DNA of 64,000 bases. Origin: Phaeodactylibacter xiamenensis. Its GTDB lineage: Bacteria > Bacteroidota > Bacteroidia > Chitinophagales > Saprospiraceae. The notes below the pieces were generated by a model, which worked only from the letters and a program-made list of their open reading frames with translations, ran no database searches and was not told the DNA's origin. A program made the position numbers and the translations under genes. Of this stretch, positions 43,484 to 63,757 are shown piece by piece. Positions within the stretch are counted from its first letter, which is position 1. Every line of letters starts with the position of its first letter. The stretch lies in assembly GCF_000759025.1 (NCBI RefSeq), contig NZ_JPOS01000079.1, forward strand, positions 62,001 to 126,000, read 5' to 3'.

Positions 43484-43527
43484 CTTCGCAGCGTGTTAAG
43501 GTGCGCATTCCCTTCGCGCTTTAGTTT

Positions 43528-45746: not shown

Positions 45747-45962
45747 GGCTAGGGTGAGGAGGTTTGCAGGGCTATAAAGCTATTGTGCTGATCTAAATTT
45801 TTGACGGAGCATCTATCCGGTCTTGGTTTTCCCTTTGCGAGGAGGTTGTGAGGTTTAGCTTCCTTTCGCCTTCCAGCTAAAACGGGCGAGCTCCCAACAT
45901 TGTTTTTCTCCACCCAAATCCGTATCTTACCGATTATTCACTAACCGCAAAAAACGGACCTC

Positions 45963-48623
45963 ATGTTTACACACACACACACACACACATTCCATCCGCC
46001 GAAGCCAACAGGCGAAAGAGGACACACACAAATTCTGCGCACGACATTCTATATTAAGCTTATTTTTTCCATGCTCATGATATCAGGCTTGCATACCGCA
46101 ACCGGGCAAAGCTACGTCACTTATGGTTTGTACGGGGAGTACGAAGAAGACCCCAAGAGCTATTTCCTGCGCGTTCAGTTCAATTTTATAGATGAGCAGG
46201 CAACGAGCGAGGCCAATACCTGGTGGGGTACAGAGGGGTATGACTTGGCAGTCAAGGCTCAAGAAGGGCTGGACAACCTCAATCAGGCGTTCAACCCGCA
46301 TGGAATATTTTTCCTGGCAGACGGGCCAACGCCGGATTGTGCTACGCCAGCTACCTATCGTTCTTATTTTGATTTGCAAAATCAAAATCCGCAAGGGTTA
46401 AGTGTTTTGGAGCTGATTAGGGGGAGCCTCCAAACGGAAGATGAGGTTGAACGGGCCCTGAATATTTACATTAACAGTGGCCAGGGGGAACCTTTGGGCT
46501 TTGCGCCTCAACTGCCTGGCAACCATGTAACTGTCAAGGGCTTGGAAGCTGGCGAACTAGCCACTAGCGGCACTATAACGGTGCACGAGGTAGGGCATGC
46601 GCTGGGGCTGTTGCATACCTTTGCCGGTGATGTACTTGGGGAGTGCAATGAAGGGGATATTCCTGAACCTGTGGGCTTCTGCTCTTCAGAAGAAGACCTT
46701 TGCTATTGCTGTGGCGATTACGTTTGTGATACAGACTACGATCTGAATGAGGATTTTGAGCTTGACCCTACAGATTGCTCTGGCGGTGAATCTATACCAG
46801 CGAGTGTGCGGCGCAATTACATGAACTATATATCCCCGGATAGATGCAGGAATGCTTTTACGGAACAGCAGGCCTTGAGAATGAAAAAATATTTGCGGGA
46901 GCTGAATGCTTACTATTCGGATGACGTATTGGATAAAATCCAGCTTCAGGAAGCAGCCTACCCCGGCACCGTCCCTTCCGGTGTAACAGGGAATTTTACA
47001 GTAGAAGCAGGAGCAGGCGTGCTTGAAATACTGTCGCCCCTGCAGATGCTGCCGGGCGCAACCATTACGGTAGAAACTGGCGCAGCGCTCCACATCAAAA
47101 ACACCTTGACAAGCGCCTGTGATGAAATGTGGCAGGGTATAAAGGTAGAGTCGGGAGGTGCCGTAAAAGTTTTTGGGCAGGGCAATATTGAGCATGCTGT
47201 ATGCGGGATAGATGCGGTAGGCAATAGCTCGGAGGTGACCATCTTTGGAGGTATGCTTATGAACAACAAGATAGGCTTACGCGTAGATGCTGATGATGCT
47301 ATTGGGACTAGCAATCAGGTCTTTTTCGGTAATTTTGAGCTCAACGACCAGTATAAAGGTGCCTCAGACGAACGGCCCTACTTTATTGTCCTGCGCGGTA
47401 ACCGGGGCACCCGGATCAGGTACACCACTTTTGCAGACGAGCGGACAGCTGATTGTTCTGCCCCAAACGGGGCCTGCCCAAAACGTGCCATTGGTATTGA
47501 TGCCCGGGAAGCTGGGTTTTTCTGCCGAGCGAACACTACTTTTTCTAAACTATATCAAGGCATCCGGGCATCCAACCTGGGCATACAGCAGGGCAGCTTT
47601 GCAGTCAGTAATTGCACGTTTTCCAAAAATACAAAGGGCATAGTTTCTAGGTTTTGCAGTAGCTTCGAAATTCAGGACAATCTATTTGAGATGAATGCGG
47701 ACGAGCACCCCACCTATTTTAATGCTGAACTGTCCATTGATAAATCCTGTATCGAAATTTTTGGGTCAGCGCAGGGCTTTACCGTTTCGGGCAATACCTT
47801 TGTCCGCCTGGGGGCCTTGAGCGAGGACTGCAGCTACTATGGTACCATCTGTACTGTTACGGGACATGGGCTGGACAATGAAATCATCAATAATGACTAC
47901 GTTTCGATGGAGGTTGGAAACGCCGCCCGGTTTAATAATGGCAACGAAGAAAACGGGCTGGTTTACCTCTGCAACGACTTCCTGGCAGAGCCTCCCGGCG
48001 TTGCCCCGGGCCCTGAGAATTGTGTGGACATACTGATTGAGCCCGGAGGGACGATTAGAAAGGAGCAGCATGGGATGAATCAGGATAATGAGGTTACGCC
48101 CGCTGGCAATATTTTCGCCTCCTCCATCAGTAATCAAAGCGGGGAGGGACAGAATGATCTGTATGAAATCATTTACTATTTCAAACCCGGAGCGCCATCT
48201 CAGAATCCAGGCTCTTCAACAGGGGTTCTAATTGAGCCGCTAGACGAGGAATTATACTGCGGCGAAGCCCCCTGCTCCCCGCCCTGCCCGGAAGATCCTA
48301 TTCTTATCAAAGCTCGTTTTGAAGACTTTGGGTTCCGGCGGGATAGCCTTCTGGAAGTAGCTTCCGGGCTGTCAGGAGCTCAAAAAGAGGAAGCGGAGCG
48401 GCAAAGCCGGTTATTTGAGCAGGAGCGCCGGCGGGCTGCCAGGCAAATCCTTCGATATTATGCCTTGGATACGGTAGCGGTAGAAGCAGACTCTATCCGG
48501 CAGTGGCTGGAAAACACCCAGACCTTTGGCAGCCTGTACCTGCTGGCCCGGGAGGAATTCTTTTTTGGGATATGGCTTTTTTTAAGGCCCTCTGGAAGCG
48601 CCTCCCTGAGCTGGTTAAGCTGA
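45963..48623 (+). CDS. M43-type metalloprotease with beta-helix, frame broken at the 3' end
   Basis: The first frame has 886 residues. The zinc motif HEVGHALGLLHTF starts at residue 208, and the Met-turn block RRNYMNYISPDRC with EQQALRMKKYL follows, as in cytophagalysin/pappalysin (M43) enzymes. From about 340 to 740 the sequence is a right-handed beta-helix (repeated short strands such as TFSKLYQGIRASNLGIQQGS). The start ATG is followed by an (AC)9 run coding Thr-His repeats, then a plausible signal (YIKLIFSMLMISGL to GQ). No other start would keep that signal. At 48578-48584 a T TTT TTA heptamer precedes an early stop; the sorting domain continues in the -1 frame. Confidence 0.85.
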   Translation: MFTHTHTHTFHPPKPTGERGHTQILRTTFYIKLIFSMLMISGLHTATGQSYVTYGLYGEYEEDPKSYFLRVQFNFIDEQATSEANTWWGTEGYDLAVKAQEGLDNLNQAFNPHGIFFLADGPTPDCATPATYRSYFDLQNQNPQGLSVLELIRGSLQTEDEVERALNIYINSGQGEPLGFAPQLPGNHVTVKGLEAGELATSGTITVHEVGHALGLLHTFAGDVLGECNEGDIPEPVGFCSSEEDLCYCCGDYVCDTDYDLNEDFELDPTDCSGGESIPASVRRNYMNYISPDRCRNAFTEQQALRMKKYLRELNAYYSDDVLDKIQLQEAAYPGTVPSGVTGNFTVEAGAGVLEILSPLQMLPGATITVETGAALHIKNTLTSACDEMWQGIKVESGGAVKVFGQGNIEHAVCGIDAVGNSSEVTIFGGMLMNNKIGLRVDADDAIGTSNQVFFGNFELNDQYKGASDERPYFIVLRGNRGTRIRYTTFADERTADCSAPNGACPKRAIGIDAREAGFFCRANTTFSKLYQGIRASNLGIQQGSFAVSNCTFSKNTKGIVSRFCSSFEIQDNLFEMNADEHPTYFNAELSIDKSCIEIFGSAQGFTVSGNTFVRLGALSEDCSYYGTICTVTGHGLDNEIINNDYVSMEVGNAARFNNGNEENGLVYLCNDFLAEPPGVAPGPENCVDILIEPGGTIRKEQHGMNQDNEVTPAGNIFASSISNQSGEGQNDLYEIIYYFKPGAPSQNPGSSTGVLIEPLDEELYCGEAPCSPPCPEDPILIKARFEDFGFRRDSLLEVASGLSGAQKEEAERQSRLFEQERRRAARQILRYYALDTVAVEADSIRQWLENTQTFGSLYLLAREEFFFGIWLFLRPSGSASLSWLS
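45969..45986 (+). repeat. (AC)9 dinucleotide microsatellite at the protease start
   Basis: Nine AC units begin six bases after the start of the protease gene, with a second short ACACACACA stretch near 46022. A change of one unit shifts the frame of everything downstream. Confidence 0.85.
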
Positions 48624-49141
48624 CGGCATACCAAATGGAAACCTACGAGGTCCTTTCTAAACTGTTTAAGATATTGCAGCCATTTGTATCTGAAAAGGGA
48701 CAGCTAGCCCCAATGGCCAAACCGTTAGTTGAGGAACTATTTAGTTTTACGGTGTACTGCAACGAGGCTGGGTATTTGGCTGCGGAAATTCTGCGGCGCA
48801 ACGGGATAGAAGCAGGGGTACAATGCAACAGCCCGAGCCCGGCAATGGCTCAACAAAACAGCGGAGGGCCCCAGGCAAAGGAGCTGCACCTCAGGCAGGA
48901 CCGTAGGAGTGCTGCGTTTTTCCCTAACCCCACGCAAGGCACCCTTCAGGTCGTCCTTCCGGAAGGGACTGATCAAGCCTCCCTGATACTTTACAACTTA
49001 CAGGGGCAGCCTGCCTTCCAGTCCGTGCTCACTGGCTCGCGCACCACTCTGCAATTGCCGGTGCCAGCGGGCATCTACTGGGCACGCCTGCAAATAGCCG
49101 GGCAGCAGCCGGTGCATCACAAAATCATTGTTTCACGCTAA
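48503..49141 (+). CDS. Second part of the protease: helical segment and T9SS sorting domain
   Basis: This frame is -1 relative to the protease and overlaps its 3' end; a GTG at 48503 or ATG at 48572 could start it separately, but neither is preceded by a signal peptide. It encodes a helical stretch (FFKALWKRLPELVKLTAYQM), a linker, then a T9SS type A sorting domain beginning FFPNPTQGTLQVVLPEG and ending HHKIIVSR. A sorting domain without a signal peptide would be useless, so it most likely is the natural C terminus of the upstream protease, joined by frameshifting or separated by a mutation or sequence error. Confidence 0.75.
   Translation: MAGKHPDLWQPVPAGPGGILFWDMAFFKALWKRLPELVKLTAYQMETYEVLSKLFKILQPFVSEKGQLAPMAKPLVEELFSFTVYCNEAGYLAAEILRRNGIEAGVQCNSPSPAMAQQNSGGPQAKELHLRQDRRSAAFFPNPTQGTLQVVLPEGTDQASLILYNLQGQPAFQSVLTGSRTTLQLPVPAGIYWARLQIAGQQPVHHKIIVSR
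48578..48584 (+). other. Candidate -1 ribosomal frameshift heptamer
   Basis: T TTT TTA is in the correct phase of the protease frame (codons CTT TTT TTA). A -1 slip gives TTT TTT AAG and joins exactly the frame that encodes the T9SS tail. No convincing stimulatory hairpin was found downstream by eye. A missing T in this T7 run, or a missing G at 48567-48569, would explain the break equally well. Confidence 0.45.
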
Positions 49142-49152
49142 ACAAGCCTGCC

Positions 49153-50664
49153 ATGAAGTTAGTGACCAAAGCACTTTTATTGCTGCTGCTGGGGCCTGTA
49201 GGCCTTAGTGCACAGTCTTTTAATATTGCTGAAGATTTGGGGTATCAAAGTAATTTCTTTGAAAGGGTGATGGTTCATAATGATACAGTCATTGCCATAG
49301 GTACCGCTCGCACTGACTCCTTAGAAAGCGGCGTTTTAATTGCTTCATACGATTCCACAGGGCAGCGGTTAGCCAGCCAGCTATTAACAGACTTTGGAGG
49401 CGAAGGTCTATATATGCTTGATAATGCTGGTGGATTTGCACCCGCAAATGGAGGGGGGTATGTTATAATTGCTTACACGATCCGTTTTAATGCCATTTTT
49501 ATTAAACTGGATGAGCAGCTCAACGAAGAGTTCCGTCATGAGTATACTGACATTGAAGATGTTAGCAATTATCACTACCGCAGCCCTATACCTTTAGAAG
49601 AGGGGTATTTGTTGTACGGCGATATAGACCGGGACAATGGGGTGCCCGACCCCTTTGTGCGCATTGTGGACGAGCATGGGCAAACCGTGCGGCTTAATTT
49701 CTACGGGAATTATGAGGATAAGGACATCTACCAGGATGCACAGCTTTTAGGGGATTCTATTTTAGTAGCTGGGGGTCAGCGGCAGGTTAGCCTGGGCTAT
49801 AGCAAAAACTTTTTCCACCGTATCCGGATATCCGATGGTGCGCTTTTAGATAGCTGGGAGTCTTCAGTAAACGCGGACATGGGATGGCTGCGGCAATTGG
49901 TTGCCCTGGAAGATGGGGATATCATCACCTTTGGGCAGCAGCCGCTGGAAATTATCGACTGGAATACTTACATCGTACAGCCTATGCTGACCCGCCTCAA
50001 TAGCAACCATGAGATCGTCTGGCAGCGGCCTATTTACCGTTCTGGCTATCATTCTAGAAATAATGGCCTGCACGAAATCAAGCACGTGTCTGATGGCTAC
50101 TTCGTAGGATCTGGCCACGTAAGTACAAATGTAGATGGCAACTCCACCCGTGCAGGCTGGCTATTTAAGTTCACGGCTTTCGGGGATTCGCTTTGGTCGC
50201 GCTATTACCTTCCTCCATTTGACACCCTTAATAATCCTATCCTCGGGGGGAGCTTTTTCTCCTTTGGAGAGCTGTCCAGCGGTAATTTAGTCAGTGGCGG
50301 AGAAGCTAATGGCGATGGCCCTCGCCGCTGCTGGATCATCAAAACGGATGCCAATGGGTGTCAGGGGGAGACGCCCTGTGAGGTGCTTACGGGTGTGGCA
50401 GAGGCTGAGCCGATGGAGGAGCCGGGTATGCGGGTGTTCCCTAACCCCGCCTCCCGCCACCTTACGGTCGCCTGGCCGGGCGCAGCGCCCACGGGCACGG
50501 GCCACTTCACGCTCTACAATATACAGGGGCAGGCGGTATGGGCAGTGACAAAGCCATCTGCACCAGAAGTACCGCTACAGTTGCCGGAGTTGCCCCCGGG
50601 TGTGTATGCCCTGCACGTGGAAGTGGAGGGGCAGGTTTGGGTGGAACGGGTGGTTATTAAGTAG
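49153..50664 (+). CDS. Secreted beta-propeller-like protein with T9SS tail
   Basis: The product has 503 residues. A signal peptide (1-20, ending VGLSAQ) is followed by about 390 residues of repeated blades in which a phrase such as VIAIGTARTDS, GGYVIIAY or ILVAGGQRQ recurs with GDSLW-like ends, a layout seen in large secreted propeller proteins. The last 80 residues are a T9SS type A sorting domain (RVFPNPASRHLTVAWPGAAP, LPPGVYALHVEVEGQ, VERVVIK). It begins 11 bases after the preceding gene and is probably co-transcribed with the protease. Function unknown. Confidence 0.85.
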   Translation: MKLVTKALLLLLLGPVGLSAQSFNIAEDLGYQSNFFERVMVHNDTVIAIGTARTDSLESGVLIASYDSTGQRLASQLLTDFGGEGLYMLDNAGGFAPANGGGYVIIAYTIRFNAIFIKLDEQLNEEFRHEYTDIEDVSNYHYRSPIPLEEGYLLYGDIDRDNGVPDPFVRIVDEHGQTVRLNFYGNYEDKDIYQDAQLLGDSILVAGGQRQVSLGYSKNFFHRIRISDGALLDSWESSVNADMGWLRQLVALEDGDIITFGQQPLEIIDWNTYIVQPMLTRLNSNHEIVWQRPIYRSGYHSRNNGLHEIKHVSDGYFVGSGHVSTNVDGNSTRAGWLFKFTAFGDSLWSRYYLPPFDTLNNPILGGSFFSFGELSSGNLVSGGEANGDGPRRCWIIKTDANGCQGETPCEVLTGVAEAEPMEEPGMRVFPNPASRHLTVAWPGAAPTGTGHFTLYNIQGQAVWAVTKPSAPEVPLQLPELPPGVYALHVEVEGQVWVERVVIK

Positions 50665-50729
50665 CCAACTTCGCATCTCTACTTGCTATGTCGGCCGTAG
50701 AAGGTTAAAGTGTTTAAAGTTAAAGTTTG

Positions 50730-50812
50730 CAGCTCATTGCTCCTGTCGTATCCCGGTTTCTTCTGGGATCCGGCAGGTTCTACTTGGAAAAACCGGGGCA
50801 GAGCTCCTGAAA
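50730..50812. repeat. Solo copy of the 43.5-kb intergenic repeat
   Basis: CAGCTCATTGCTCCTGTCGT aligns with the start of the array at 43528, then a TCCCGG/TGGGAT hairpin and GGCAGGTTCTAC and CAGAGCTCCTG match unit 2 of the array. With the array it brackets the secreted-protein genes at 44046-50664. The rest of the gap to 50944 holds the operator candidate at 50850. Confidence 0.75.
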
Positions 50813-50849
50813 AGCCATTTTTACTCCAGAATGCTCATTTAGTCGCACA

Positions 50850-50868
50850 TAGTGTAATTTTAACACTA
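50850..50868. promoter_or_regulatory. Palindromic operator candidate upstream of the porin gene
   Basis: TAGTGT-N7-ACACTA, the same arms and spacing as at 4879-4897. It lies 77-95 bases before the start at 50945. Confidence 0.45.
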
Positions 50869-50944
50869 AATCACCCCTCCCCCTGAGATAAGTCACTGCG
50901 GAAGTGTGCTGCCTTTTGTTCCTTGCGGGCAAAAGCATGACGAT

Positions 50945-52228
50945 ATGAAACGGTTCCTGCAAATTCTGGTGGTGTTGATGATGGGATGGAGCGTGCTGCA
51001 AGGACAGGGCGTACTGCGGTACAACCTGGATACCACCGGGCAGACTTACCTCAAAGCCAGTCTTCGCGCCCAGCTCTGGGGGCGGTATACGCAGATGAAC
51101 CCCGGTACCGTTATCTACGGCGAGCCCACCAGTGAGTACTTCGATGTATCCATCCGCCGCCTGCGGATGAACTTCTGCGGGCAGCTGACCCCCGAGCTTT
51201 TCGTTTACGCTGGTTTTGGCAATAACAACCTCAACTACCGCAACAATGCAGACTTCCAAATCGGGGTGTTGGACCTTTACGCAGAGTATGCCTTTCACCG
51301 GGCCCTGGCCGTTGGTTTTGGGAAATCCGGCTACCACGGGCTGAGCCGCCTGAATTTGCGCAGCAGCCGCTCCATGCTGGGGCTGGATGCGCCCCTGTTT
51401 TCCCTTTACTCTGTCAACCAGACCGATCACCTGGGGCGCAACCTGGGCATTTGGGTGAAGGGGCAGGCTGGCAACTGGGATTACCGCGCCGTCATGAACA
51501 ATCCGATAAAGTACGATAGTGGCGACCCCGGTGCCTACGCTGACTGGGCCAATACCCGCCCACGCCTGCGCTGGTCCTTCTACCTCAAGCATCAGTTTGC
51601 TGACCATGAGGGAAACGGGCCCTTTGGAGCCGGTACTTACCTAGGCAAAAAGAAAATCTTCAACCTGGGCGCAGGCTTTGCCTGGCAGCCCCGCGCGATG
51701 TGGACGGGCAGCGCGTTGAGCCCCGATTACCATGATATGTTCCACTTTGCCGCAGACCTGTACGTGGAGTGGCCCGTGTTTAAGGGCACTGCCGATGCCT
51801 TTACGGCTTACCTCGGCTTTTTCAATTACGACTTTGGGCCCGGCTACCTGCGCAACCTAGGCGCCAACAATCCTGCCACCGGCTTATTACTGAGCGAAGC
51901 CAGCTTCAATGGCACCGGCGCTGCCTTCCCAATGATTGGTACCGGGCAGGTGCTGTTTTGGCAAACCGGCTATTTATTGCCAAAAGGGGGCACGCCAACT
52001 CAAGCCCGCCTGCAGCCCAATGCCTCTGTGGAATACGCCCGTTACGACCGGCTTTCCGACCCTATGCTGGCCTATGAGCTGGCGGTCAACCTGTTGTTCA
52101 ACGGGCACAACAGTAAGCTGACGCTGGGCGCACAGAACCGCCCCATTTTCCAGGCCCAGGAAAACGGCGTCTTCGAAACCGACCGGCTCTGGATGGCGGT
52201 CCTGCAGTATCAGGTGGAGATCAATTAG
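50945..52228 (+). CDS. Phosphate-selective porin O/P-like protein
   Basis: The product has 427 residues from the ATG at 50945 (an earlier in-frame start lacks a signal). A signal peptide (about 1-22, ending GQG) is followed by a barrel with 16-18 amphipathic strands: TYLKASLRAQLWGRYTQMN, FDVSIRRLRMNFCGQLTPEL (the conserved R.R..G block of OprO/P-like porins), ADFQIGVLDLYAEYAF, LRWSFYLKHQFADHEG, ending AVLQYQVEIN. It would form an outer-membrane channel for anions or other small solutes. It carries the same palindrome upstream as susC. Confidence 0.85.
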   Translation: MKRFLQILVVLMMGWSVLQGQGVLRYNLDTTGQTYLKASLRAQLWGRYTQMNPGTVIYGEPTSEYFDVSIRRLRMNFCGQLTPELFVYAGFGNNNLNYRNNADFQIGVLDLYAEYAFHRALAVGFGKSGYHGLSRLNLRSSRSMLGLDAPLFSLYSVNQTDHLGRNLGIWVKGQAGNWDYRAVMNNPIKYDSGDPGAYADWANTRPRLRWSFYLKHQFADHEGNGPFGAGTYLGKKKIFNLGAGFAWQPRAMWTGSALSPDYHDMFHFAADLYVEWPVFKGTADAFTAYLGFFNYDFGPGYLRNLGANNPATGLLLSEASFNGTGAAFPMIGTGQVLFWQTGYLLPKGGTPTQARLQPNASVEYARYDRLSDPMLAYELAVNLLFNGHNSKLTLGAQNRPIFQAQENGVFETDRLWMAVLQYQVEIN

Positions 52229-52335
52229 AAGTTGACTTCCAAGATGAAATGCCTTGCCAGAGCCAATTCACGGATTGTGCCGATTTTCTTAAGAAAGAAT
52301 TGCGTACTTTCATTGCATCAATAATGCGCACCCCG

Positions 52336-53994
52336 ATGAAGAAGGTTTTTACATTACTGCTATTTGGCCTCCTGCTCTCTTCCTGCTCCATTGAACAGGT
52401 GCTGCTTAAAGGCACCAAGCCGGTCAGCCACCCGGTCACTCAAACACCAGCTTACAAGGCGCTCAACCCTTATCAGCAAGACTACCTTTTCGCAGCCCGC
52501 CTGATACGTGAAAGTTATCCCGATTGGGAATCTATCCTTTCGCCGGCAGCGTTTGATGCCCTGGAGCAAGCCGGAATCGAAGCGTTAGCCCTGCCATGCA
52601 GCCCACAGGAATTCCGGTGGGAATTGCAGCGATTACTGGCCACCTTCCGTAATGACCATACCCGGCAGCTAAAGTCCTGGTACCCGAAAGAACCTCTGTT
52701 TTATCCTTATCAGCTGAATTATGCCCCCCGAAACGAAGGCTATGGCTGGTATATTGAGCGCATCGATTCCATTTATGGGGCATCCTGGATTGGTTGTTGG
52801 GTGGATCAAATTGGCAACCGTAGCTTGGACAGCCTGTCCGCAGCGTTTGGGGAAATGACGGCCCGGGAACATGAATATGGCATTCGCGACGACCTCTACC
52901 GGCGCTGGCTGTTTTCCCGGCCCCGCCTCCTGGCCCGTATGGATGTCGATACGGCACAGGGCCTATCCCTTGAGTGTTCCTGCCCGGATGGGCCCAGGCA
53001 GCTTAGGGTTGCCCCCGGTCCCAGTAAGTCTTTCAACCTGCAAAGCCAAAAGCCCCGCCGTAGCCATTCCAAACCTCGCCAGGATGGGTTCTGGTATCAG
53101 GCCATCGAAGATAAAGGATACGGGTACTTTCAATTCAATGGTATGTTTGACCGGGAAGTAGTGGTGGATGGCCTGAAGACCTACGTCCGGGCACCTATCC
53201 GCCCGCTCGCCCGACTATTTCTCAGGCGGGAGTACCGGCGGGCAGCAAAGGGGAAATCCACTCGCTGGATCAGGCCCAATGCTGAGGACTTTGATGCCTT
53301 TTTACAGGAGGTATTTACCGATTTAAACGCTAAAAACCTTCGGACCCTTGTTATCGACCTGCGCAGTAACGGTGGAGGTGATCTGGAAATGGCCCGTCCT
53401 TTACTCTACGCTTTGGCCCCGCAGGCAGCTGTGCGCCCCATACAGGACTACATTTACCTTTCTCCCTTATCAAGGTCCCAATTCCAGGAAGAGTGGAAAG
53501 CGTTGGACCGTGCTTGCCAAAAACTCAATCAATCATTGCCCGCCGATGGCACACTCGTGAATGTAGACAGTCTGGAAATCGCTGCCGGATTAGAACAAGC
53601 TGATTTCTTTGCTCCTGTCATGGACCCCAGGTCTCCGGTATACTTTCGGCCGCCCGTACCCGAGTATGACGGGCAGGTTATTTTTCTGGTTGGGCCTCAA
53701 ACTGGTAGCGCCGCTGCCGGTTTGGCTACGCTGGTAAAAGATAATGGCATTGGGCAGTTGGTTGGGACGGTGGTTAGTGAACGGCCGGAAGGGGCAACCG
53801 CTGTATCCAGAGTGAACCTGCCTAACAGCAAGGAAGAAATATCAATTTCGGTCTGGCACAAAAAACGGCCGGCGCCGGAAGCTCCAAAAGACCTGCTTCT
53901 TCCGGATCACTGGGTAGAACCGGACAAGGACAGTTATCTGAATACCGCTGACCCGGTGCTGGATTGGGTGGAAATGCATTTGATCGGTCGTTGA
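52336..53994 (+). CDS. S41-type peptidase-like lipoprotein
   Basis: The product has 552 residues from the ATG at 52336 (an ATG four codons earlier is also possible). The lipoprotein signal MKKVFTLLLFGLLLSSC has lipid cysteine at 17. The middle is a large domain of unknown type. The tail-protease (S41) core follows: TLVIDLRSNGGGDLEMARPL, then the nucleophile region VGPQTGSAAAGLATLVKDN with the serine, and GTVVSERPEGATA. The usual catalytic Lys four residues after Ser is replaced by the sequence AAGLA, so activity is uncertain. It lies on the cell surface or in the periplasm. Confidence 0.85.
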   Translation: MKKVFTLLLFGLLLSSCSIEQVLLKGTKPVSHPVTQTPAYKALNPYQQDYLFAARLIRESYPDWESILSPAAFDALEQAGIEALALPCSPQEFRWELQRLLATFRNDHTRQLKSWYPKEPLFYPYQLNYAPRNEGYGWYIERIDSIYGASWIGCWVDQIGNRSLDSLSAAFGEMTAREHEYGIRDDLYRRWLFSRPRLLARMDVDTAQGLSLECSCPDGPRQLRVAPGPSKSFNLQSQKPRRSHSKPRQDGFWYQAIEDKGYGYFQFNGMFDREVVVDGLKTYVRAPIRPLARLFLRREYRRAAKGKSTRWIRPNAEDFDAFLQEVFTDLNAKNLRTLVIDLRSNGGGDLEMARPLLYALAPQAAVRPIQDYIYLSPLSRSQFQEEWKALDRACQKLNQSLPADGTLVNVDSLEIAAGLEQADFFAPVMDPRSPVYFRPPVPEYDGQVIFLVGPQTGSAAAGLATLVKDNGIGQLVGTVVSERPEGATAVSRVNLPNSKEEISISVWHKKRPAPEAPKDLLLPDHWVEPDKDSYLNTADPVLDWVEMHLIGR

Positions 53995-54012
53995 GTAGCG
54001 CTAAAATTGATA

Positions 54013-54044
54013 TTGTAAAATATGGTATGAAAAATATACATTTG
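54013..54044 (+). promoter_or_regulatory. Promoter of the Septu-like operon
   Basis: TTG at 54013-54015, 21 bases, then TACATTTG at 54037-54044: full match to TTG-N17-23-TAnnTTTG. It lies 32 bases before the start of the ATPase gene. Confidence 0.65.
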
Positions 54045-54075
54045 TCTAATAACTTATAAAGAAAAGCATATATCT

Positions 54076-55308
54076 ATGGAAGTGTTAAAATTGAAAATTG
54101 ATAAGTACAAAGTGTTTAAAGGTTTTGAAGCAGACTTTTCTAATGAAGACGGAACTACCAAGAAAATAATCGTGTTAGCGGGTGTCAATGGCAGTGGTAA
54201 AACATCTCTATTAGAGTTTATCCATAAAATGGTTGTTGACCCTAAGATAGATAGGAAAGGATACGTAGATATCTTAACGGAATTTGGATCAGAAAAAGAT
54301 AACAGGAAGTTAATAGAGTCAGTGGCTTCACTCCGTCTGAATTACCGTCTATTTAAAAATATAACGGCTTTTGAAAAAAAACAAAAAAATGTAGATTCAG
54401 ATGATAATCTAGTATACCTAACGGCTAATGGAACTACAGAAATTATTTTTAAAGATAAAGAAGAAATTTTTGTCGAGGCAATATCCAAATTGAAAAGTTC
54501 AGTTGTATTTTTAAACACAGAGCAATTTGATTTCAAGAATGTTAATAATCTTATTTTCTCTTTTGTGAAAAAGTTAATTTTTAATAAAAATGTTAGCCCA
54601 AAAGATGCATATAATGAAGTTCAAAATATTTTAGATAGTCTATTTGAGGATTTTGACCTTAGGGTTAGATTTGGCAGCATTGATGCTTCGTGGGAGGCAG
54701 GGAAAGAAAGTTTTCTCGTATATTTCAAAAACAGACATTCGGACAAAATACCAATATCTGACCTTTCAACGGGAGAGAAAGAATTAATTACAAGAGCTTT
54801 TTTTTTAGAGGTTGTGACACCTTACAATTCTGTGGTCTTGGTTGATGAGCCCGAGCGATCGCTCCATCCAAAGTGGCAACAACAGATATTTGATGTTTAC
54901 GCAAGAGTTTCTGAAAAGTACGATGCCCAGTTTATTATCGCTACGCATTCTCCTCATATAATTTCCTCCGTTGATCCTAATAGTTTATTTATTTTGAACT
55001 TGGAAGAAAGTGTAGATGAGCCAAATAATTTGAGCATCAGTATAGAAAATATGGAAACACTTAATAAACATACAAAAGGAGTTGAACCCAACAGAATTCT
55101 AAAAGAGATTATGGGGGTGTCAAGGTTGAGGTATGGGGAAATAGATAAAAAAGTTAACGACCTAGTTTCACTTCTAAATATTCATGATTATGATAGTGAT
55201 GATGTAGCGAAGAGAAGGGATGAATTAATCCGTATTTTAGGAGATAAAGACCCTACAATGATCAGAGTTAATCACCAAATTAAGGTTCTGGAAAGAAAAC
55301 TAAATTAG
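54076..55308 (+). CDS. ptuA: SMC-like ATPase, PtuA-type Septu defence protein
   Basis: The product has 410 residues. It has a full ABC/SMC-type ATPase: Walker A GVNGSGKT (36-43), signature LSTGEKEL (about 228), Walker B VVLVDEPERSLHP (about 250-262) and H-loop FIIATHSPHIIS (about 290). The middle insert has coiled-coil character and there is no Toprim domain, which separates it from OLD nucleases. The HNH gene follows two bases later, the Septu arrangement, in which the ATPase holds and controls the nuclease and the complex stops phage. Codon use is AT-rich (AGA/AGG Arg, TTA Leu) unlike flanking genes, indicating transfer. Assignment is by architecture. Confidence 0.85.
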   Translation: MEVLKLKIDKYKVFKGFEADFSNEDGTTKKIIVLAGVNGSGKTSLLEFIHKMVVDPKIDRKGYVDILTEFGSEKDNRKLIESVASLRLNYRLFKNITAFEKKQKNVDSDDNLVYLTANGTTEIIFKDKEEIFVEAISKLKSSVVFLNTEQFDFKNVNNLIFSFVKKLIFNKNVSPKDAYNEVQNILDSLFEDFDLRVRFGSIDASWEAGKESFLVYFKNRHSDKIPISDLSTGEKELITRAFFLEVVTPYNSVVLVDEPERSLHPKWQQQIFDVYARVSEKYDAQFIIATHSPHIISSVDPNSLFILNLEESVDEPNNLSISIENMETLNKHTKGVEPNRILKEIMGVSRLRYGEIDKKVNDLVSLLNIHDYDSDDVAKRRDELIRILGDKDPTMIRVNHQIKVLERKLN

Positions 55309-55310
55309 TA

Positions 55311-56039
55311 ATGAGGTTTGTTTCAAACGAAAATAAATGTGATGAGTGGAGTGAATTCTTAAAATCAGAGGCAAAAAGCTTGAAAGTAAAAAGACCTTGG
55401 GATAAGCTCACAAAAATTTCTCGAAAAGATAAGGTGACAGGTGAACGGATTAAAGTTGGGTCAAATGCAAAAAGAGCATTGCATGAGCATCTTTGGCGGG
55501 AGCAAAAGGGTTTATGCATTTACTGTATGCAGGAGATTCATAAAACCAGGCTCAACTCAGATAGTCACCTTGAACACTTGATGAATAAGTCTCAATTCAA
55601 AGAGCTGATATTTGAGTACGATAATCTTTCAGTATCTTGCAATGGATACGATTGTTCAACCGACCAGGATTCAAAGGGTAAGAATCAGTTTTGCGGTCAT
55701 TACAAGGATAAAAAAAATAAAAAGCCAGAATTTATCGCTGAAAAATATATAAATCCTTGTGAGGATGAAAATATCGAAAGCTACTTTGAGTATGATGTTG
55801 AAGGACGTATTAAACCGGCAAGAAATATAGAGCCTGATATAAAAGGAAAGGCATCTTATATGATTGATTTGATCAATTTGAATGATGATGGGCTTGTTTC
55901 GGCAAGAAAAGCTGCTTATGAGAGCCTGATAGAGTCGGAGATTCAAGAAGGAGAAAAATTTGTTTTAGATTTACTTGATGAAAAGAACAAATTTTTTCTA
56001 GGATATCATTCTATGCTTAAGAGCCTTTTTGGCTTTTAA
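55311..56039 (+). CDS. ptuB: HNH nuclease, PtuB-type Septu effector
   Basis: The product has 242 residues. The zinc-finger HNH domain reads GLCIYCMQEIH (C69, C72), then SHLEHLMNKSQ (H86, H89) and YDNLSVSCN (the Asn/Cys part), with GHYKDKK close behind. This is the TIGR02646-like pattern used by PtuB and by retron HNH effectors. The rest is helical and charged. It starts two bases after the ATPase stop and shares its AT-rich composition. It is expected to cut DNA when phage is sensed. No reverse transcriptase is adjacent, so a retron is not supported. Confidence 0.85.
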   Translation: MRFVSNENKCDEWSEFLKSEAKSLKVKRPWDKLTKISRKDKVTGERIKVGSNAKRALHEHLWREQKGLCIYCMQEIHKTRLNSDSHLEHLMNKSQFKELIFEYDNLSVSCNGYDCSTDQDSKGKNQFCGHYKDKKNKKPEFIAEKYINPCEDENIESYFEYDVEGRIKPARNIEPDIKGKASYMIDLINLNDDGLVSARKAAYESLIESEIQEGEKFVLDLLDEKNKFFLGYHSMLKSLFGF

Positions 56040-56112
56040 CAGTATATTTTCAACTAACATTATCTTGCGACTAAGAAATTTGATTATCATAGGGGAAATT
56101 ATCCCTTAGGTA

Positions 56113-57336
56113 ATGAAAATCATCCACACCTCCGACTGGCACCTTGGCCAGAAACTCTTGTACAACGACCGGGAAGAAGAGCACCGCCTGGCTCTGGACT
56201 GGCTATTGCAGGCTATTGAACAAGAGCAGGCCGATGGGCTTATTGTTGCCGGTGATATTTTTGATATTGGCAATCCGCCCAATTACGCCCGCAGCCTATA
56301 CTATCAGTTTTTGCGCAAACTGCTGAATACCAACTGTCGGCACGTAGTGATCACCGGGGGCAACCACGATTCTCCGGCCATGCTCAATGCGCCCCGGGAG
56401 CTGTTGCAGGCACTGAATGTGCATGTGGTGGGCGCGGCAGGCGAATATGCAGCAGAGGAAATCGTGGTCTGGAAGGACGAAGCCGGCAGGGTAGAGGCGA
56501 TCATCGCAGCGGTCCCTTTTCTGCGCGACCGCGATCTGCGCTACAGTGTGGCCGGGGAAACGGGCTACGACCGGGTGGAGCAAATCCGCGCCGGTATCAA
56601 AAAACACTACGATGACCGGGCGGCTTATATTTCGGAACACTTCGATACCTCGGGCGTGCCGGTGATCGCGACCGGGCACCTCTACGCCACCGGGGCAGGT
56701 GCTTCCGGCAGGCAGGACAACATCTACATCGGCAATACAGAAAACATCGAGGCGCGGCAGTTTCCGGAGCTGTTTGACTACGTCGCCCTGGGGCACATCC
56801 ACCGGGCACAAGTGGTGGGTGGATTGGACCACGTGCGGTACTCGGGCTCGCTTATCCCGCTGAGCTTTAGTGAAACGAAGGACGAGAAAACCATTTATGT
56901 ATTGGAATGGTCTGGCAAAATGCTGGATACGATACGCAGCCTGCCGGTGCCGGTATTCCGGCGGTTGAAGGGCATTAGCGGGAATCTGGAAGAAGTGCTG
57001 GAAAGCCTGTCCCGCTTCGTCCAAAAAGACCGGGAAGGGCTGGAGCCCTGGATTGAGGTCAGTGTGGAACTGGACCGCATGGTGCCGGAGCTGAGCACCC
57101 TTTTGCAGGACGCCCTGGAAGCCAACGGCGGCGGCGCATCCATCCTGAAGATACAGGCCCGTTACCCGCAACGGCAGGAGCTGGCTCAGCAGAACGCCCC
57201 CGACCTCGATTCCCTGGAAGCCGAAGAAGTCTTCAAAATGAAATGCGAACAATACGGCAGCCCGCCCGACCAAATGGACGAACTGCTCGCTACTTTCCGG
57301 GAGTTGCAGTCCTGGATGACCGAACAAAAAGTATAG
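56113..57336 (+). CDS. sbcD: Exonuclease subunit SbcD
   Basis: The product has 407 residues. Metallophosphoesterase motifs in order are HTSDWHLGQ, VAGDIFDIG, GGNHDSPA, TGHLYATG and ALGHIHRAQ. The C-terminal capping domain follows to TEQKV. With SbcC it forms the Mre11-Rad50-like nuclease that opens hairpins and blocked DNA ends. It begins 74 bases after the Septu-like HNH gene and 24 bases before sbcC, so it is an operon with sbcC. GC content rises sharply at this gene relative to the two before it. Confidence 0.96.
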   Translation: MKIIHTSDWHLGQKLLYNDREEEHRLALDWLLQAIEQEQADGLIVAGDIFDIGNPPNYARSLYYQFLRKLLNTNCRHVVITGGNHDSPAMLNAPRELLQALNVHVVGAAGEYAAEEIVVWKDEAGRVEAIIAAVPFLRDRDLRYSVAGETGYDRVEQIRAGIKKHYDDRAAYISEHFDTSGVPVIATGHLYATGAGASGRQDNIYIGNTENIEARQFPELFDYVALGHIHRAQVVGGLDHVRYSGSLIPLSFSETKDEKTIYVLEWSGKMLDTIRSLPVPVFRRLKGISGNLEEVLESLSRFVQKDREGLEPWIEVSVELDRMVPELSTLLQDALEANGGGASILKIQARYPQRQELAQQNAPDLDSLEAEEVFKMKCEQYGSPPDQMDELLATFRELQSWMTEQKV

Positions 57337-57359
57337 CCTTAAATATAGGATCAGAATCA

Positions 57360-60300
57360 ATGAGAATCATCTCTATTCGCTTGCTGAATATTAACTCACT
57401 GCGCACGATGCTGGTGCTTGACTTTAACGAAGCTCCTTTATCTAAAAGTAGGCTATTCGCCATCACCGGAGATACGGGCGCGGGCAAAAGCACCATTCTT
57501 GATGCCCTCACCCTGGCGTTGTACGGGCAAGTGCCCCGGAAGGCAGATGAAGGCGAAATCATGTCCTACGGTGCCGGCACAAGCCTGGCCGAGGTGGAGT
57601 TTGAAGTCGGGCAGGAACGCTACCGCAGCAAGTGGAGCATCTGGCGGGCGCATGAAAAAGCAGAGGGTGCCCTGCAGCCCTCCCGCCGGGAACTGTCCCA
57701 CTGGAATGCCGAAAAGCAGGCCTTCGAAATCATCGGAGAGAAAAAACGGGAGGTCAATGAAAAAATCGTTGAGATCACAGGACTGGACTACGACCGCTTC
57801 TGCCGGTCCGTGCTGCTGTCACAGGGCGATTTTGCTGCCTTCCTCAAGGCAGACGAGCGCGACCGCAGCGAACTGCTGGAGCGCATCACCGGCACCGCTA
57901 TCTATTCTGACCTTAGTAAAGCCGCCTTTGAGCGCCACAAACTGGAAAAGCAGAGGCTGGAAGCCCTGGAACAGGAGCTCGAAATGCTAGACCTGCTTTC
58001 CGAAGAAGAAGCCGCTGCGCTTGATCAGCAATTAAAAGAACTCCAAAATACCGTCAAATCCCGCCGGGCAGAAGAGCAGCAACTCCGGGAACAACTCAAC
58101 TGGCTGCTTCAGCTGGAAAAACTGCAGCAAAAAGAACAACGCCTGCAGCAAGAAGCCAACGACCTGGAAGAACAATCCACCGCTTTCCAGCCCAAAGCCG
58201 GGCGACTTGCCCTCCACCGCAAAGCTCTGCCCCTGCAATTGCCCATTCAGCGCCTGCAGGACGCCACCGGGCAGCTGCAGTCCCTCAACGAAGGGATCGC
58301 AAAGGACGAACAGGCCCTCCCAGCCTTGCAGCAACAGCTCGAAGCGGCCAAAAAGAACAGTGCCGAAGCAGCAGATGCCCTCCAATCGGCCAAAGCAGCA
58401 CAGCAAAAGCAGGCACCGCTGCTGGAAAAGGTCAAAGCTCTGGACCTGACTATTGCCGGTCAGCGCCCCACTTTGGAAAAACAGCAGCAAGCCCTTGCCC
58501 ATGCCCGGGAGGACCTGCAGAAAACAACGCAGCAACAGCAAAAAACAGCCACCGCTTTGCAAACGGCCAGAGAAAAGGCGGAATCGGTTGGCCAATGGCT
58601 GGAAACCCACGCCTCCTGGTCAAAACTGGCCGAAGACCTGCCCGGCATCCGCGAGCAACGGAAACAGCTGGCTGGCAGCTTCAAGGAACAACAGTCCATC
58701 AGCAAAAAGCTGGAACAGCAGGAAAATAAGCAGAAGACAGGTGCCGCCGCTCTGTCCACGCTGCAGCAGCAGGCCAATGATTTAAATCAAAAGAGAGATC
58801 ATGCCCTGAGCCAGTTTAATCAACTGGCGCCCAAGTCTTTCACTACCGATACCAGCTCCCTGCTGGACCGCCTGCACGAGGAAATCACCGGTCTGACCCA
58901 ACGGCAAACCCGCCTGGAAAAACTTCAAACCCTCAGCCGGGATTACGAAAAACTGCTGGCGACCTACAGTCGTCTGGAAACCGAACTGGAGGAGTTACAG
59001 GCCCGTGACCGCATCCTGAACGCCGAAGTCCTGGGTACACTCGATCAGATCGATCAATTGCAGAAAACCCGGCAGTACCGCAGCCGGATTTTTGAGCAGC
59101 AGCAGGCTATTGCCAACTATGAGAAAGACCGTGCCCATTTGGAAGAAGGCGAGCCCTGCCCGCTTTGCCTGTCGACTCACCACCCCTTCCGGGAAAAAGA
59201 AGTGAAGCCCTTTGTGGATGAAGCCCGGGAGGACCTGAAGCGTGCGGAAGCGCAACTGGAAAAAGCCCAGCAGCAGCAACGGCAGCTCCTTACCGAGCAG
59301 CAGCAGATCGAAATGCGCATCGAGCAGTTGCAGGGCGATGAGAAAAAAGACCTTGCCGGCAAATTGCAGGAGCAGTACGAGCAACTCGTGGCCCATGAAG
59401 AGCAGATCGCTGCCCTTCAACCCAAAGAAAGCCAATGGGTGAAAGCTTCGTCCCTGAGTGGCGAGCTAAACGCTTTACAAGCCGAACTGGAACAGCGGCA
59501 GGCCGATCGAAAAACCCTGAGCCAGGTCCTGAAGTCCCTGGATGCGATAAAGGCAGACCTGGAAAAAGCCGAACGCCGCTACCATGATGCCGCCGCTGAT
59601 CAGCGATTGCTGGAAGCCGAAGTGGGTCGATTGCAACAGGAGCAGGCCGAAAAAGCCCGGCAATTTGAGGAAGGCACCGCCCGCATCAATCAACTGCTGG
59701 AGCCCCACGGTTTTGCCTTCGAGCTGAAGACGGCTAAAGCCATGTTTCAAACCCTGGAAGAGCGCAGGGAAGCCTGGGCTGCCCAAAAAGGAGAAGCCGA
59801 TGCCCTGGCAAAAGAAACCGCCGTGCTGGAAGCCCAATTGGAGCAGCTCAATCAGCAGCTGGAAGAACGGCAGGCAGTGGTACAGGAACAGGAAGCTGCG
59901 GTAAAGGAATCTCAATCAGCCCTTGCCCAACTGCAACAGGAACGCGAAGCCTTATTTGGCGACAAAGACCCGGTCAAGGTGGGGCAGGCACTACAGGAAC
60001 AGCAGGAGCAGGCCGAAGCGCAGCGGGACGAAGCACAGGACGCCGCCGTCAAGGCAGAGCAGGCCGTACTTACCACCCAGTCCAGCCTTAAGGAAAAGCA
60101 GGAACAGCAAATCAGCCAGTCTGCCAAAGTTAAAGGATTTGAAGACGAGCTGGTCAAAGCCGCCCGTTCCGCAGGTTTCGAAGATGCCGCTACTGCGCAG
60201 TCTGCCTTACTAACCGAATCGGAAGCCCAGTCCCTCGAAACGGAGGCCGAAACCCTGCGGCAGCAACAACAGCAGCTTCAACAGAGCCTGAAAGAGACAC

Positions 60301-61010
60301 AAGCCGAACTGGAGCAGGAAAAAGCCCGCGCCCTCACGGACCGCCCTGCCGACGAGCTGGAAACGGCATTGGAAGAAGCCGCAGAAGCTTTATCTGCTTT
60401 GCAACAGCGAACGGGCGCACTCACAGAACAACAGCGCCGCTATCAGGCACAACAGGCTAAGGCCGCCGGTCTGGCAGAACAACTGGCGCAACAACGCAAA
60501 GGCTACCAACGCTGGGCCGCCCTCAATGACATCATCGGGCAGGCGGACGGGAAGAAGTTCCGGATGTTCGCGCAGGGGCTCACCCTGCAAAAGCTGACAC
60601 AACTGGCCAATATCCACTTGCAGCAGCTCCACGGGCGCTACCTCATCCAAAAACGGGAAGGCGATACGTTGGAACTCGACATCGTAGACACCTATCAGGC
60701 CGACAACCGGCGCTCCATGAATACCCTTTCCGGCGGCGAGAGTTTCCTGGTGAGCCTTGCTCTGGCCCTCGGCCTCAGCGAACTGGCCGGGCGGGATACG
60801 CAGATTCAATCCCTCTTCATTGACGAGGGCTTTGGCACACTTGATGAAAATACCCTCGACCTGGCTATTGCCACCCTGGAAAATCTGCAGGCAAGCGGGA
60901 AGACCATTGGCATCATTTCTCACGTCAAAGCCCTGAAGGAGCGCATCGCTACGCAGGTGCAGGTGACGAAGCAGGGGAATGGGTTTAGTACGGTGCAGGT
61001 GGTGGGGTGA
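57360..61010 (+). CDS. sbcC: Exonuclease subunit SbcC
   Basis: The product has 1216 residues from the ATG at 57360; upstream in-frame codons lie inside sbcD. The N-terminal ATPase half has MRIISIRLLNINSLRTMLVL and Walker A GDTGAGKST (near 34-42). A coiled coil very rich in Gln, Glu, Leu and Ala follows on both sides of the zinc hook EPCPLCLSTHH (CPLC near 600). The C-terminal half has LSGGESFLVSLALALGLSEL and Walker B SLFIDEGFGTLDE. It works with SbcD as a structural DNA repair nuclease. Confidence 0.96.
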   Translation: MRIISIRLLNINSLRTMLVLDFNEAPLSKSRLFAITGDTGAGKSTILDALTLALYGQVPRKADEGEIMSYGAGTSLAEVEFEVGQERYRSKWSIWRAHEKAEGALQPSRRELSHWNAEKQAFEIIGEKKREVNEKIVEITGLDYDRFCRSVLLSQGDFAAFLKADERDRSELLERITGTAIYSDLSKAAFERHKLEKQRLEALEQELEMLDLLSEEEAAALDQQLKELQNTVKSRRAEEQQLREQLNWLLQLEKLQQKEQRLQQEANDLEEQSTAFQPKAGRLALHRKALPLQLPIQRLQDATGQLQSLNEGIAKDEQALPALQQQLEAAKKNSAEAADALQSAKAAQQKQAPLLEKVKALDLTIAGQRPTLEKQQQALAHAREDLQKTTQQQQKTATALQTAREKAESVGQWLETHASWSKLAEDLPGIREQRKQLAGSFKEQQSISKKLEQQENKQKTGAAALSTLQQQANDLNQKRDHALSQFNQLAPKSFTTDTSSLLDRLHEEITGLTQRQTRLEKLQTLSRDYEKLLATYSRLETELEELQARDRILNAEVLGTLDQIDQLQKTRQYRSRIFEQQQAIANYEKDRAHLEEGEPCPLCLSTHHPFREKEVKPFVDEAREDLKRAEAQLEKAQQQQRQLLTEQQQIEMRIEQLQGDEKKDLAGKLQEQYEQLVAHEEQIAALQPKESQWVKASSLSGELNALQAELEQRQADRKTLSQVLKSLDAIKADLEKAERRYHDAAADQRLLEAEVGRLQQEQAEKARQFEEGTARINQLLEPHGFAFELKTAKAMFQTLEERREAWAAQKGEADALAKETAVLEAQLEQLNQQLEERQAVVQEQEAAVKESQSALAQLQQEREALFGDKDPVKVGQALQEQQEQAEAQRDEAQDAAVKAEQAVLTTQSSLKEKQEQQISQSAKVKGFEDELVKAARSAGFEDAATAQSALLTESEAQSLETEAETLRQQQQQLQQSLKETQAELEQEKARALTDRPADELETALEEAAEALSALQQRTGALTEQQRRYQAQQAKAAGLAEQLAQQRKGYQRWAALNDIIGQADGKKFRMFAQGLTLQKLTQLANIHLQQLHGRYLIQKREGDTLELDIVDTYQADNRRSMNTLSGGESFLVSLALALGLSELAGRDTQIQSLFIDEGFGTLDENTLDLAIATLENLQASGKTIGIISHVKALKERIATQVQVTKQGNGFSTVQVVG

Positions 61011-61128
61011 ACAACTGATGCAACGCTCCAAATAATCGGTTGTCTATACGGGTGTATGTAACTTTTTGGGTAAATCAATCGTCTTCCGGGCGATGATTTA
61101 ATTTAAAAAATCAAAACACCCGACGTTT

Positions 61129-62451
61129 ATGAAAAAGCAGTTTACCTATCTTTTTATGGCCGCCTGTGCCTTTTGCCTGGTCCTGAGCACGCCTTTGCAG
61201 GCGCAGGAGGGCGATCGTTCCATTACTGTAATCAAGACCGTAACCCACGAGGACGGCACCGTAACCACGGTTAAGAAGCGGCTCTCCGGTGATGAAGATC
61301 CGGAAGCTTACCTGGAAACCCTGACCGAAGATGAAGGAGCCGTATCCGTTGATATTCAGGTGGTCATGGGAGAGGAGCCTTCCGGTGAGGCGGACGATGA
61401 GCCAGTCCTGTTTTTCCGCCGTGCCAATTCAGATGATGAAAACGAAGAAATTGAGGAAGTCCGCATTTTTATGAATGGGGATGCCGGCGATTTCACGAAA
61501 GTGATTGAGGAACGCATCCGTGGGCCACACCCCAACAGCCGCACCAAAAAAGTCAAAGCGGTCAAAGCCTTTTTAGGTATTTATCCGGGCAGTACCGATG
61601 ATAATGCAGGGGTTGCTGTACGCGGTGTAGTCGATGGGACTGGTGCGCAGGTCGGCGGCATTCAGAAAGGCGATGTGATTCAGTCGATTGCCGGTTATGC
61701 CACCAATGGCACCTATGGGCTGAGTGGCGTTTTGCAAAAGCTGGAGCCCGGGCAGCAGGTGGAGGTTCAGGTGCTGCGCGATGGACAGCCACAGACCCTT
61801 TCCGTAGTGCTGGGCGAGAAAGAATACATGCGCACGGTGCTCAATGAAGACCGGGAGCCCTGTGATGTGTTTATCGGTGTCTACGTTGGCGGTACCGGCG
61901 CGAATGGCGAGGGCGTGCAGGTGACCAATATTATCGGTGGTACACCGGCTGAGGAATACGGTGTTCAGCCCGGTGATGTCATCCTGGCTATGGATGGGGT
62001 GAAGGTCAACGGCAATGCTGAATTGCTCAAAGAACGCAATAAGCATGAACCCGGCGATGAGTTTATGCTGACTATCAACCGGGGCGGTATGATTAAGGAT
62101 TTAGGCGCAAAATTCTACCTCTGCGAGCGCGTGGAAGAAGAAGTGCCGGCTATTGTTGAGGAGACGATGGACGTACCGGAAAGCACCCTTGAGCTGGGCA
62201 ATTACCGGGCATTCCCGAATCCGAGCTACGGACTGATCCGGGTACAGTTTGCCGCTGAGGAGGCACCGGTAAGCGTGCAAATCACAGATGTCTCCGGCAG
62301 AGTGGTGTATCAGCAGCAGCTCAATCAGTTTGATGGCTATTTTGATGAGGAAATCGACCTGAGTGGCGCTACGCCCGGGAATTTATTCCTGACCATTCAG
62401 CAAGATGGCAAACTCACCACTAAGCAATTACTGCTGATTAACCGGGTGTAA
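61129..62451 (+). CDS. Secreted two-PDZ protein with T9SS tail
   Basis: The product has 440 residues. A signal peptide (about 1-25, ending LQAQ) precedes an acidic region (about 26-140), then two PDZ domains: one near 148-230 (FLGIYPGSTDDNAGVAVRGV, IQKGDVIQSIAG) and one near 245-330 (VFIGVYVGGTGANGEGVQV, VQPGDVILAMDG). The last 80 residues are a T9SS type A sorting domain (YRAFPNPSYGLIRVQF, KQLLLINRV). There is no protease domain, so the PDZ pair probably binds peptides or other secreted proteins on the cell surface. Confidence 0.9.
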   Translation: MKKQFTYLFMAACAFCLVLSTPLQAQEGDRSITVIKTVTHEDGTVTTVKKRLSGDEDPEAYLETLTEDEGAVSVDIQVVMGEEPSGEADDEPVLFFRRANSDDENEEIEEVRIFMNGDAGDFTKVIEERIRGPHPNSRTKKVKAVKAFLGIYPGSTDDNAGVAVRGVVDGTGAQVGGIQKGDVIQSIAGYATNGTYGLSGVLQKLEPGQQVEVQVLRDGQPQTLSVVLGEKEYMRTVLNEDREPCDVFIGVYVGGTGANGEGVQVTNIIGGTPAEEYGVQPGDVILAMDGVKVNGNAELLKERNKHEPGDEFMLTINRGGMIKDLGAKFYLCERVEEEVPAIVEETMDVPESTLELGNYRAFPNPSYGLIRVQFAAEEAPVSVQITDVSGRVVYQQQLNQFDGYFDEEIDLSGATPGNLFLTIQQDGKLTTKQLLLINRV

Positions 62452-62473
62452 AGAACCATCCTTGAAAAAGTGT

Positions 62474-62511
62474 TTTGTGCCCAGGGTGCTGATTAGTACC
62501 TTGGGCACAAA
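62474..62511. terminator. Strong stem-loop between the PDZ and methyltransferase genes
   Basis: TTTGTGCCCAGGGT and ACCTTGGGCACAAA form a 14-base-pair stem (one G-U) with a 10-base loop. It begins 22 bases after the PDZ stop and ends 8 bases before the next start. The tail ATCGTTTGT has only a short T run, so it may be a terminator or a dyad operator. Confidence 0.5.
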
Positions 62512-62519
62512 TCGTTTGT

Positions 62520-63461: not shown

Positions 63462-63757
63462 GACGCCGCCCGTCTGAAGCGGTCCAACAGGTAAAACAGC
63501 GCCCCAAACGGGATAAGCGGCAGCAGCCACAAAATTTGAGCACCGTTTAGCCCAAGAGCTTCCTTTAGCAGGAATAGCACGCCCATCCATACCGTAAATC
63601 CAAGGGCTACCAGCAACCGCCGTTTGCGGTCAAAGCGGAGGTCCGTCCCACACTCCGGGCAGGGCCAGGTGTCCCCCAGGCTACGGAATAGCATGCCGCT
63701 GAGGTACGCTTTGGGGCTGTATCGGTATTGGCAGTTTGGACAAGTTCTCGCATCCAT
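63458..63757 (-). CDS. Zinc-ribbon membrane protein
   Basis: The product has 99 residues from the ATG at 63757; a longer frame adds 26 residues without family character. The N terminus has two CPxC knuckles (TCPNCQYRYS and WPCPECGTDLRF) forming a zinc ribbon, followed by two membrane helices (LLVALGFTVWMGVLFLL and ILWLLPLIPFGALFYLL). Similar small proteins are common in Bacteroidota with no known role. Confidence 0.75.
   Translation of the reverse strand: MDARTCPNCQYRYSPKAYLSGMLFRSLGDTWPCPECGTDLRFDRKRRLLVALGFTVWMGVLFLLKEALGLNGAQILWLLPLIPFGALFYLLDRFRRAAS

Follow-up and report, generated by a model that had tools for sequence, protein, structure and literature searches.

A stand-alone Septu-like ptuAB gene pair, apparently gained horizontally, next to sbcDC in Phaeodactylibacter xiamenensis

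Organization of the ptuAB locus

The window analysed here is a stretch of 64,000 nucleotides from a contig of Phaeodactylibacter xiamenensis (NZ_JPOS01000079.1). It contains the following features around a predicted ATPase-nuclease gene pair:

52285-56112, no strand assigned: segment with an S41 peptidase gene and ptuAB, missing in the closest congener, G002 (blastn of L005)
54013-54044, forward strand: Bacteroidota-type promoter-like motif TTG-N21-TAnnTTTG upstream of ptuA (pattern scan and shuffles)
54076-55308, forward strand: ptuA, ABC/SMC-type ATPase of 410 aa (best PADLOC model PDLC00289; Pfam AAA_21 and AAA_15; fold matches)
55311-56039, forward strand: ptuB, HNH nuclease of 242 aa, TIGR02646 family (PDLC00332, TIGR02646, PDB PtuB 8ee7_C)
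56017-56039, forward strand: terminator-like hairpin overlapping the end of ptuB (terminator scan; fold of 56010-56060)
56113-57336, forward strand: sbcD, starting 73 bases past the end of ptuB; sbcC is next

According to the ORF list of the window, ptuA and ptuB are co-directional, with ptuA first and a gap of two bases between them, and the original prediction of a 410-residue ATPase and a 242-residue HNH protein is borne out by the ORFs, their spacing and the presence of all the ABC motifs. The 2.1-kb segment contains a stop-to-stop frame of 425 codons, compared with a maximum of 199 across 2000 mononucleotide shuffles. The GC content is 0.33 in ptuA and 0.35 in ptuB, and the GC3 values (0.29 and 0.33, versus 0.56–0.73 in the five nearest listed genes) are the two lowest among the 39 non-overlapping ORFs of at least 200 aa in the window, in agreement with the earlier claim of AT-rich codon use unlike that of the flanks. 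The two 1-kb bins across ptuAB have a GC content of 0.318 and 0.344, against 0.418–0.596 in the remaining 62 bins.

The pair had also been credited with its own consensus promoter, which holds only in part. The motif TTG-N21-TACATTTG at 54013-54044, with the ATG of ptuA 31 bases downstream, fits the pattern TTG-N21-TAnnTTTG, which we take to be the Bacteroidota promoter consensus; when the 81-base stretch upstream of ptuA was shuffled 20,000 times, 76 of the shuffled sequences contained such a motif, and the pattern has nine further matches elsewhere in the window. The sigma-70-like sites before ptuA, on the other hand, are weak (score only 9/12), and the region contains 13 such sites where shuffles give 6.8. 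Judged from the sequence, the start signal of ptuA would be better described as Bacteroidota-type than as sigma-70. At the opposite end, the stretch 56010-56060 folds with -13.8 kcal/mol (z -4.96), while the terminator scan taken alone is not significant, with one site in the region versus 2.6 expected in shuffles. The evidence that a terminator-like hairpin closes ptuAB before sbcD is thus suggestive only, and ptuAB has the appearance of an independent unit that ends upstream of sbcD.

Identification of PtuA and PtuB

Our profile searches identified the ATPase as a member of the PtuA family and its partner as PtuB. The best of the 150 PADLOC models matching the ATPase at 0.01 or below is PtuA1 (PDLC00289, E 3.2e-77, residues 1-404), with the next PtuA model at 1.6e-32. 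The HNH protein, matched by 41 models at this threshold, is best described by PtuB1 (PDLC00332, E 5e-39) and scores 85.0 bits with TIGR02646, above the cut-off of 52.15. Pfam AAA_21 and AAA_15 match PtuA, in which we assign the Walker A (35-AGVNGSGKTSL), signature (230-LSTGEKEL), Walker B (253-VVLVDEPERSLHP) and His-switch (286-FIIATHSPHII) motifs; the residues of these four motifs are invariant in the PtuA alignment (n=13). PtuB has C69, C72, H86-L-E-H89, N105, C110 and C128, of which H89 and N105 are invariant in its alignment (n=13).

Comparison with solved structures points in the same direction. A PDB sequence search with PtuA returned retron I-A and Septu PtuA chains at about 3e-10 (top match 9n69_A, a retron I-A entry), with AriA, transporters and one OLD-family entry weaker, and in the search with PtuB the top match was Septu 8ee7_C (E 2.7e-16), with retron PtuB next. 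An alignment of 17 sequences gave an AlphaFold2 model of PtuA of moderate quality (mean pLDDT 67.2, below 50 at residues 56-132), and the PtuB model is poor (pLDDT 53.5). Foldseek nevertheless placed 8eea_C from the Septu PtuAB complex on top for the PtuA model (E 7.2e-16), and the best 50 of 640 PDB fold matches (E ≤0.001) all belong to Septu or retron I-A (Ec78/Eco7, Ec83) structures, though their TM-scores stay at about 0.4–0.5. PtuA is at most 32% identical over its length to the relatives found. The profiles, the sequences of solved structures and the PtuA fold therefore agree on a Septu-like defence pair, as originally proposed.

Phylogenetic distribution and probable horizontal gain

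The closest genome found, G002, belongs to the same genus, and its sbcD and the left neighbour are 97% and 99% identical to those of the window. In blastn comparison, window positions 51621-52284 and the sequence from 56113 (the start codon of sbcD) onward align with G002, and nothing between them does. The G002 genome has a completeness of 61%, but a single contig spans the site. Another gene, on the opposite strand, occupies the interval from the left neighbour to sbcD there, so this is not a clean empty site. PtuA has no match below 1e-7 in five congeners and none below 1e-8 when three family members are added (best 2.6e-8, G025); the single weak PtuB match in these eight genomes (6.4e-4, congener G004) lies near a PtuA-like match. 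With the genome under study counted in each case, 20 of 199 family genomes and 21 of 395 phylum genomes contain relatives of PtuB (E ≤0.001). The relative with the lowest E-value shares 35% identity across residues 4-208, and another shares 39% across residues 51-208. The best family PtuB match, in G179, has an open frame of 209 aa; the two stops in the matched stretch are upstream of its ATG. PDLC00289 was detected at 1e-25 in at least seven of 395 class genomes (own genome counted; scoring limited to a few top candidates from each genome) and, among 14 control genomes, in Bacteroides ihuae only. No close relative or donor was found in plasmids, phages, viral contigs or genome contigs, where the best full-length PtuA is about 28–32% identical.

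Because the pair is absent at the G002 site, has only weak matches in the five congeners and deviates in composition, horizontal gain of ptuAB appears well supported, which upholds the earlier proposal. AT-richness is nonetheless partly a trait of such Septu pairs: in a comparison of the window pair with 21 relatives hand-picked from 40-odd loci, 21 of the 22 pairs are AT-richer than their own flanks (mean difference -0.057), and the window pair is the most extreme (-0.208). The S41 peptidase gene has a host-like GC content (0.53) and only weak or partial matches, in 7 of 38 relatives, and for these reasons it may represent a change separate from the gain of ptuAB. Neither edge of the AT-rich block carries a repeat; it is straddled by three imperfect repeats of 14–20 nt (D2, D3 and D7; 85–93%), which lie within flanking coding sequence. 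No integrase or transposase was identified among eight neighbouring proteins, three of them without a Pfam match. The presence of a close congener without the pair at the same site provides a natural plus/minus comparison.

Comparison with known Septu systems

Among the closest known systems is the E. coli Septu PtuAB (8ee4, 8ee7, 8eea and 8sux, which we take to be the structures of Li et al. 2024), like the window pair a two-gene system of a PtuA ATPase and a PtuB HNH protein. It supplies both the best fold match of PtuA (8eea_C) and the best sequence match of PtuB (8ee7_C), although its PtuA is longer (465 versus 410 aa) and only about 17% identical over the fold alignment. The closest PtuA found, with 30–32% identity and the same best model PDLC00289, comes from the Arcobacter cloacae plasmid pACLO. 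Unlike the stand-alone window pair, the pACLO genes lie within a type I-B CRISPR-Cas operon, and their PtuA as annotated carries about 145 extra N-terminal residues.

The pACLO pair (L101:7566-9805, NZ_CP053834.1) is located between cas8b and cas7, co-directional with the operon, and is annotated merely as an AAA family ATPase and a hypothetical protein; a literature search for PtuA with cas8b found no paper. By sequence reading, a related two-gene ptuAB cassette (L185:9840-11515, G714) sits inside an apparent phenylacetate degradation cluster, with phenylacetate-type, coaD-like and gpmI-like genes as neighbours, and the pair in L142, likewise a near relative in the subfamily, neighbours a leuA-like gene.

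According to PADLOC's authors (PMC8565338), ptuAB preceded by a reverse transcriptase (RT) gene constitutes Septu type II, which equals retron type I-A. In our case the gene upstream of ptuA encodes an S41 peptidase and not an RT, and no RT match was found on the 292-kb contig of the window (the eight RT matches of the genome sit on seven other contigs); hence ptuAB is classified as stand-alone Septu (type I). It has the PtuA profile, the TIGR02646/PtuB HNH protein, the gene order, the catalytic residues and the RT-free upstream region of Septu type I, and lacks the adjacent RT gene that defines retron type I-A. We conclude that ptuAB is very probably a stand-alone Septu type I system, a horizontally gained two-gene cassette that came to lie beside sbcDC by chance. 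As such it is a divergent yet standard Septu pair, an ordinary example of a known system, and adds a divergent, apparently intact pair from a Bacteroidota host.

Predicted mechanism

The report on Septu EcB88 (PMC13096335) describes a stand-alone ptuA-ptuB pair like that of the window. Its immunity requires the Walker residues of PtuA (mutation of K43 and D316 in Walker A/B abolished it) and H75 and N91 of PtuB, and upon infection it cleaves tRNA-Tyr, in the variable loop. Matched by motif and spacing, with the sequences unaligned, K42 and D257 of the window PtuA fit K43 and D316, and the H89-N105 spacing of PtuB (16 residues) equals that of H75-N91. Retron-Eco7 PtuAB likewise depletes tRNA-Tyr (PMC11555353), and Septu of E. 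coli ATCC 25922 is cited in the same paper as attacking nicked DNA. Because of the EcB88 and Eco7 literature and the shared 16-residue H-to-N spacing, infection would be expected to release HNH cleavage under ATPase control: PtuA would form an oligomer that controls the PtuB nuclease via ATP binding or hydrolysis. For the window pair, control by the ATPase, the trigger, the target and an abortive outcome are putative and derive from relatives; the target within the PDLC00289 subfamily cannot be predicted.

A different view would be that the PDLC00289 subfamily forms a mechanistically distinct Septu branch, with lone cassettes inserted into housekeeping loci and, in pACLO, into a type I-B CRISPR-Cas operon; trigger and target may therefore differ from both studied Septu modes. 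We regard this possibility as unlikely.

Retrons and other ATPase-nuclease systems

The retron-Eco7/Ec78 and Ec83 PtuAB proteins (type I-A, Septu type II) are an effector pair homologous to window ptuAB, which might be the effector module of such a retron whose RT was lost or is encoded elsewhere. Both proteins match the PADLOC retron models (ATPase_I-A, 1.1e-30; HNH_I-A, 3.2e-30), retron I-A chains resemble PtuA in fold and provide its best PDB sequence match, and PtuB attains 114.2 bits with the retron Ec78 PtuB model NF041761. This score is, however, below the cut-off of 150, as is that of PtuA with the corresponding model NF041760 (98.9 bits, cut-off 500), and the best PtuA profile is the PtuA1 model. 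The window PtuA (410 aa) is shorter than the retron PtuA chains among the PDB matches (542–552 aa), and unlike these retrons its contig has no RT match and its locus no Rfam RNA match (none above the gathering score in 48000-64000, although Rfam may lack such retron msr-msd RNAs). We therefore find a retron origin very improbable. It is likewise very improbable that the pair is another two-gene ATPase-nuclease system (AriA, OLD, HEC or AbiLi type) with only a likeness to Septu. AriA models do match PtuA, as does AAA_21, but the best of them (7.7e-24) falls short of PDLC00289 by over 50 orders of magnitude; the partner gene encodes an HNH protein of the TIGR02646 family, and the best fold matches are those of Septu and retron I-A noted above.

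Proximity to sbcD and sbcC

The stand-alone Septu pair directly adjoins sbcD on the same strand, and the original prediction considered a functional link possible. In such a partnership PtuB would make ends in invader DNA, SbcCD would process them, and the adjacency would have been selected. The case illustrates that a place beside a repair operon does not in itself demonstrate a shared role. Matches to sbcD occur in three of five congeners and, with the genome under study counted, in 34 of 59 genomes. We examined 20 sbcD loci (19 of a set of 20 stretches, and G002) and resolved sbcD in 19, that is, in 18 besides G002; neither these 18 nor G002 have ptuAB among up to six upstream genes (the contigs of L065 and L074 end early). 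The upstream genes differ widely among the loci, and variability is a general feature of the block preceding sbcD. A tblastn search of these loci with the window PtuA and PtuB gave only two weak PtuA matches, both in L076, a locus with ATPases that score best as HEC-04 and HEC-01A.

The Septu side gave the same picture. From 49 non-self PtuB places we took 40 as regions of 4–20 kb (648,403 bases; six below 10 kb and thus truncated); PtuA and PtuB are both matched in 33 of them. Neither sbcD nor sbcC had a match at 1e-4 in these 40 regions and seven further loci, nor was there one in five additional PDLC00289 regions. The window SbcD and SbcC queries do recover relatives in the sbcD loci, with slightly different settings. 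In the titles and abstract openings among the literature matches listed, with subscription literature mostly outside the search, there was no Septu-SbcCD link and no Septu within a cas operon. Apart from the adjacency itself, a partnership with SbcCD could appeal to the defence cluster upstream of sbcD in G046 (L076), which has type III restriction and HEC-01- and HEC-04-like genes. Given that the arrangement recurs neither in the sbcD loci nor in the Septu regions examined, and given the terminator-like hairpin at the end of ptuB, we reject such a partnership as highly improbable; on balance, the adjacency of ptuAB and sbcDC looks accidental.

In the cluster of G046 (L076:740-8829), genes for a type III restriction methylase and nuclease stand on either side of HEC-04- and HEC-01A/B-like genes. 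A defence hotspot before sbcD was also considered and not retained: we scanned up to four genes upstream of sbcD in 19 loci (70 genes) with PADLOC at 1e-15, a set that left out the G002 gene adjoining sbcD and loci L071 and L013. Among the matches listed (25 of 63 matched families, given by family and not by matching gene) are restriction, HEC and AriA matches fitting G046, DpdF and PsyrT with one gene each, DEDDh and PDC-S48 with three each, and PDC-S03 with one. The DpdF and PsyrT matches are tentatively taken to be a RecQ helicase, and the DEDDh and PDC-S48 matches an exonuclease/GIY-YIG protein such as that at window positions 40810-42225.

Two further observations concern the surroundings of sbcD. 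The stretch from the NamZ-like gene to sbcD varies between genomes: a NamZ homologue adjoins sbcD in G005, G006 and G025, while in the window about 12.6 kb (43480-56113) separate the NamZ-like gene (42260-43480) from sbcD. The sbcC ORF as listed begins inside sbcD (57243-57360); because the profile matches start only at residue 40, the real start of sbcC is probably a methionine near 57360.
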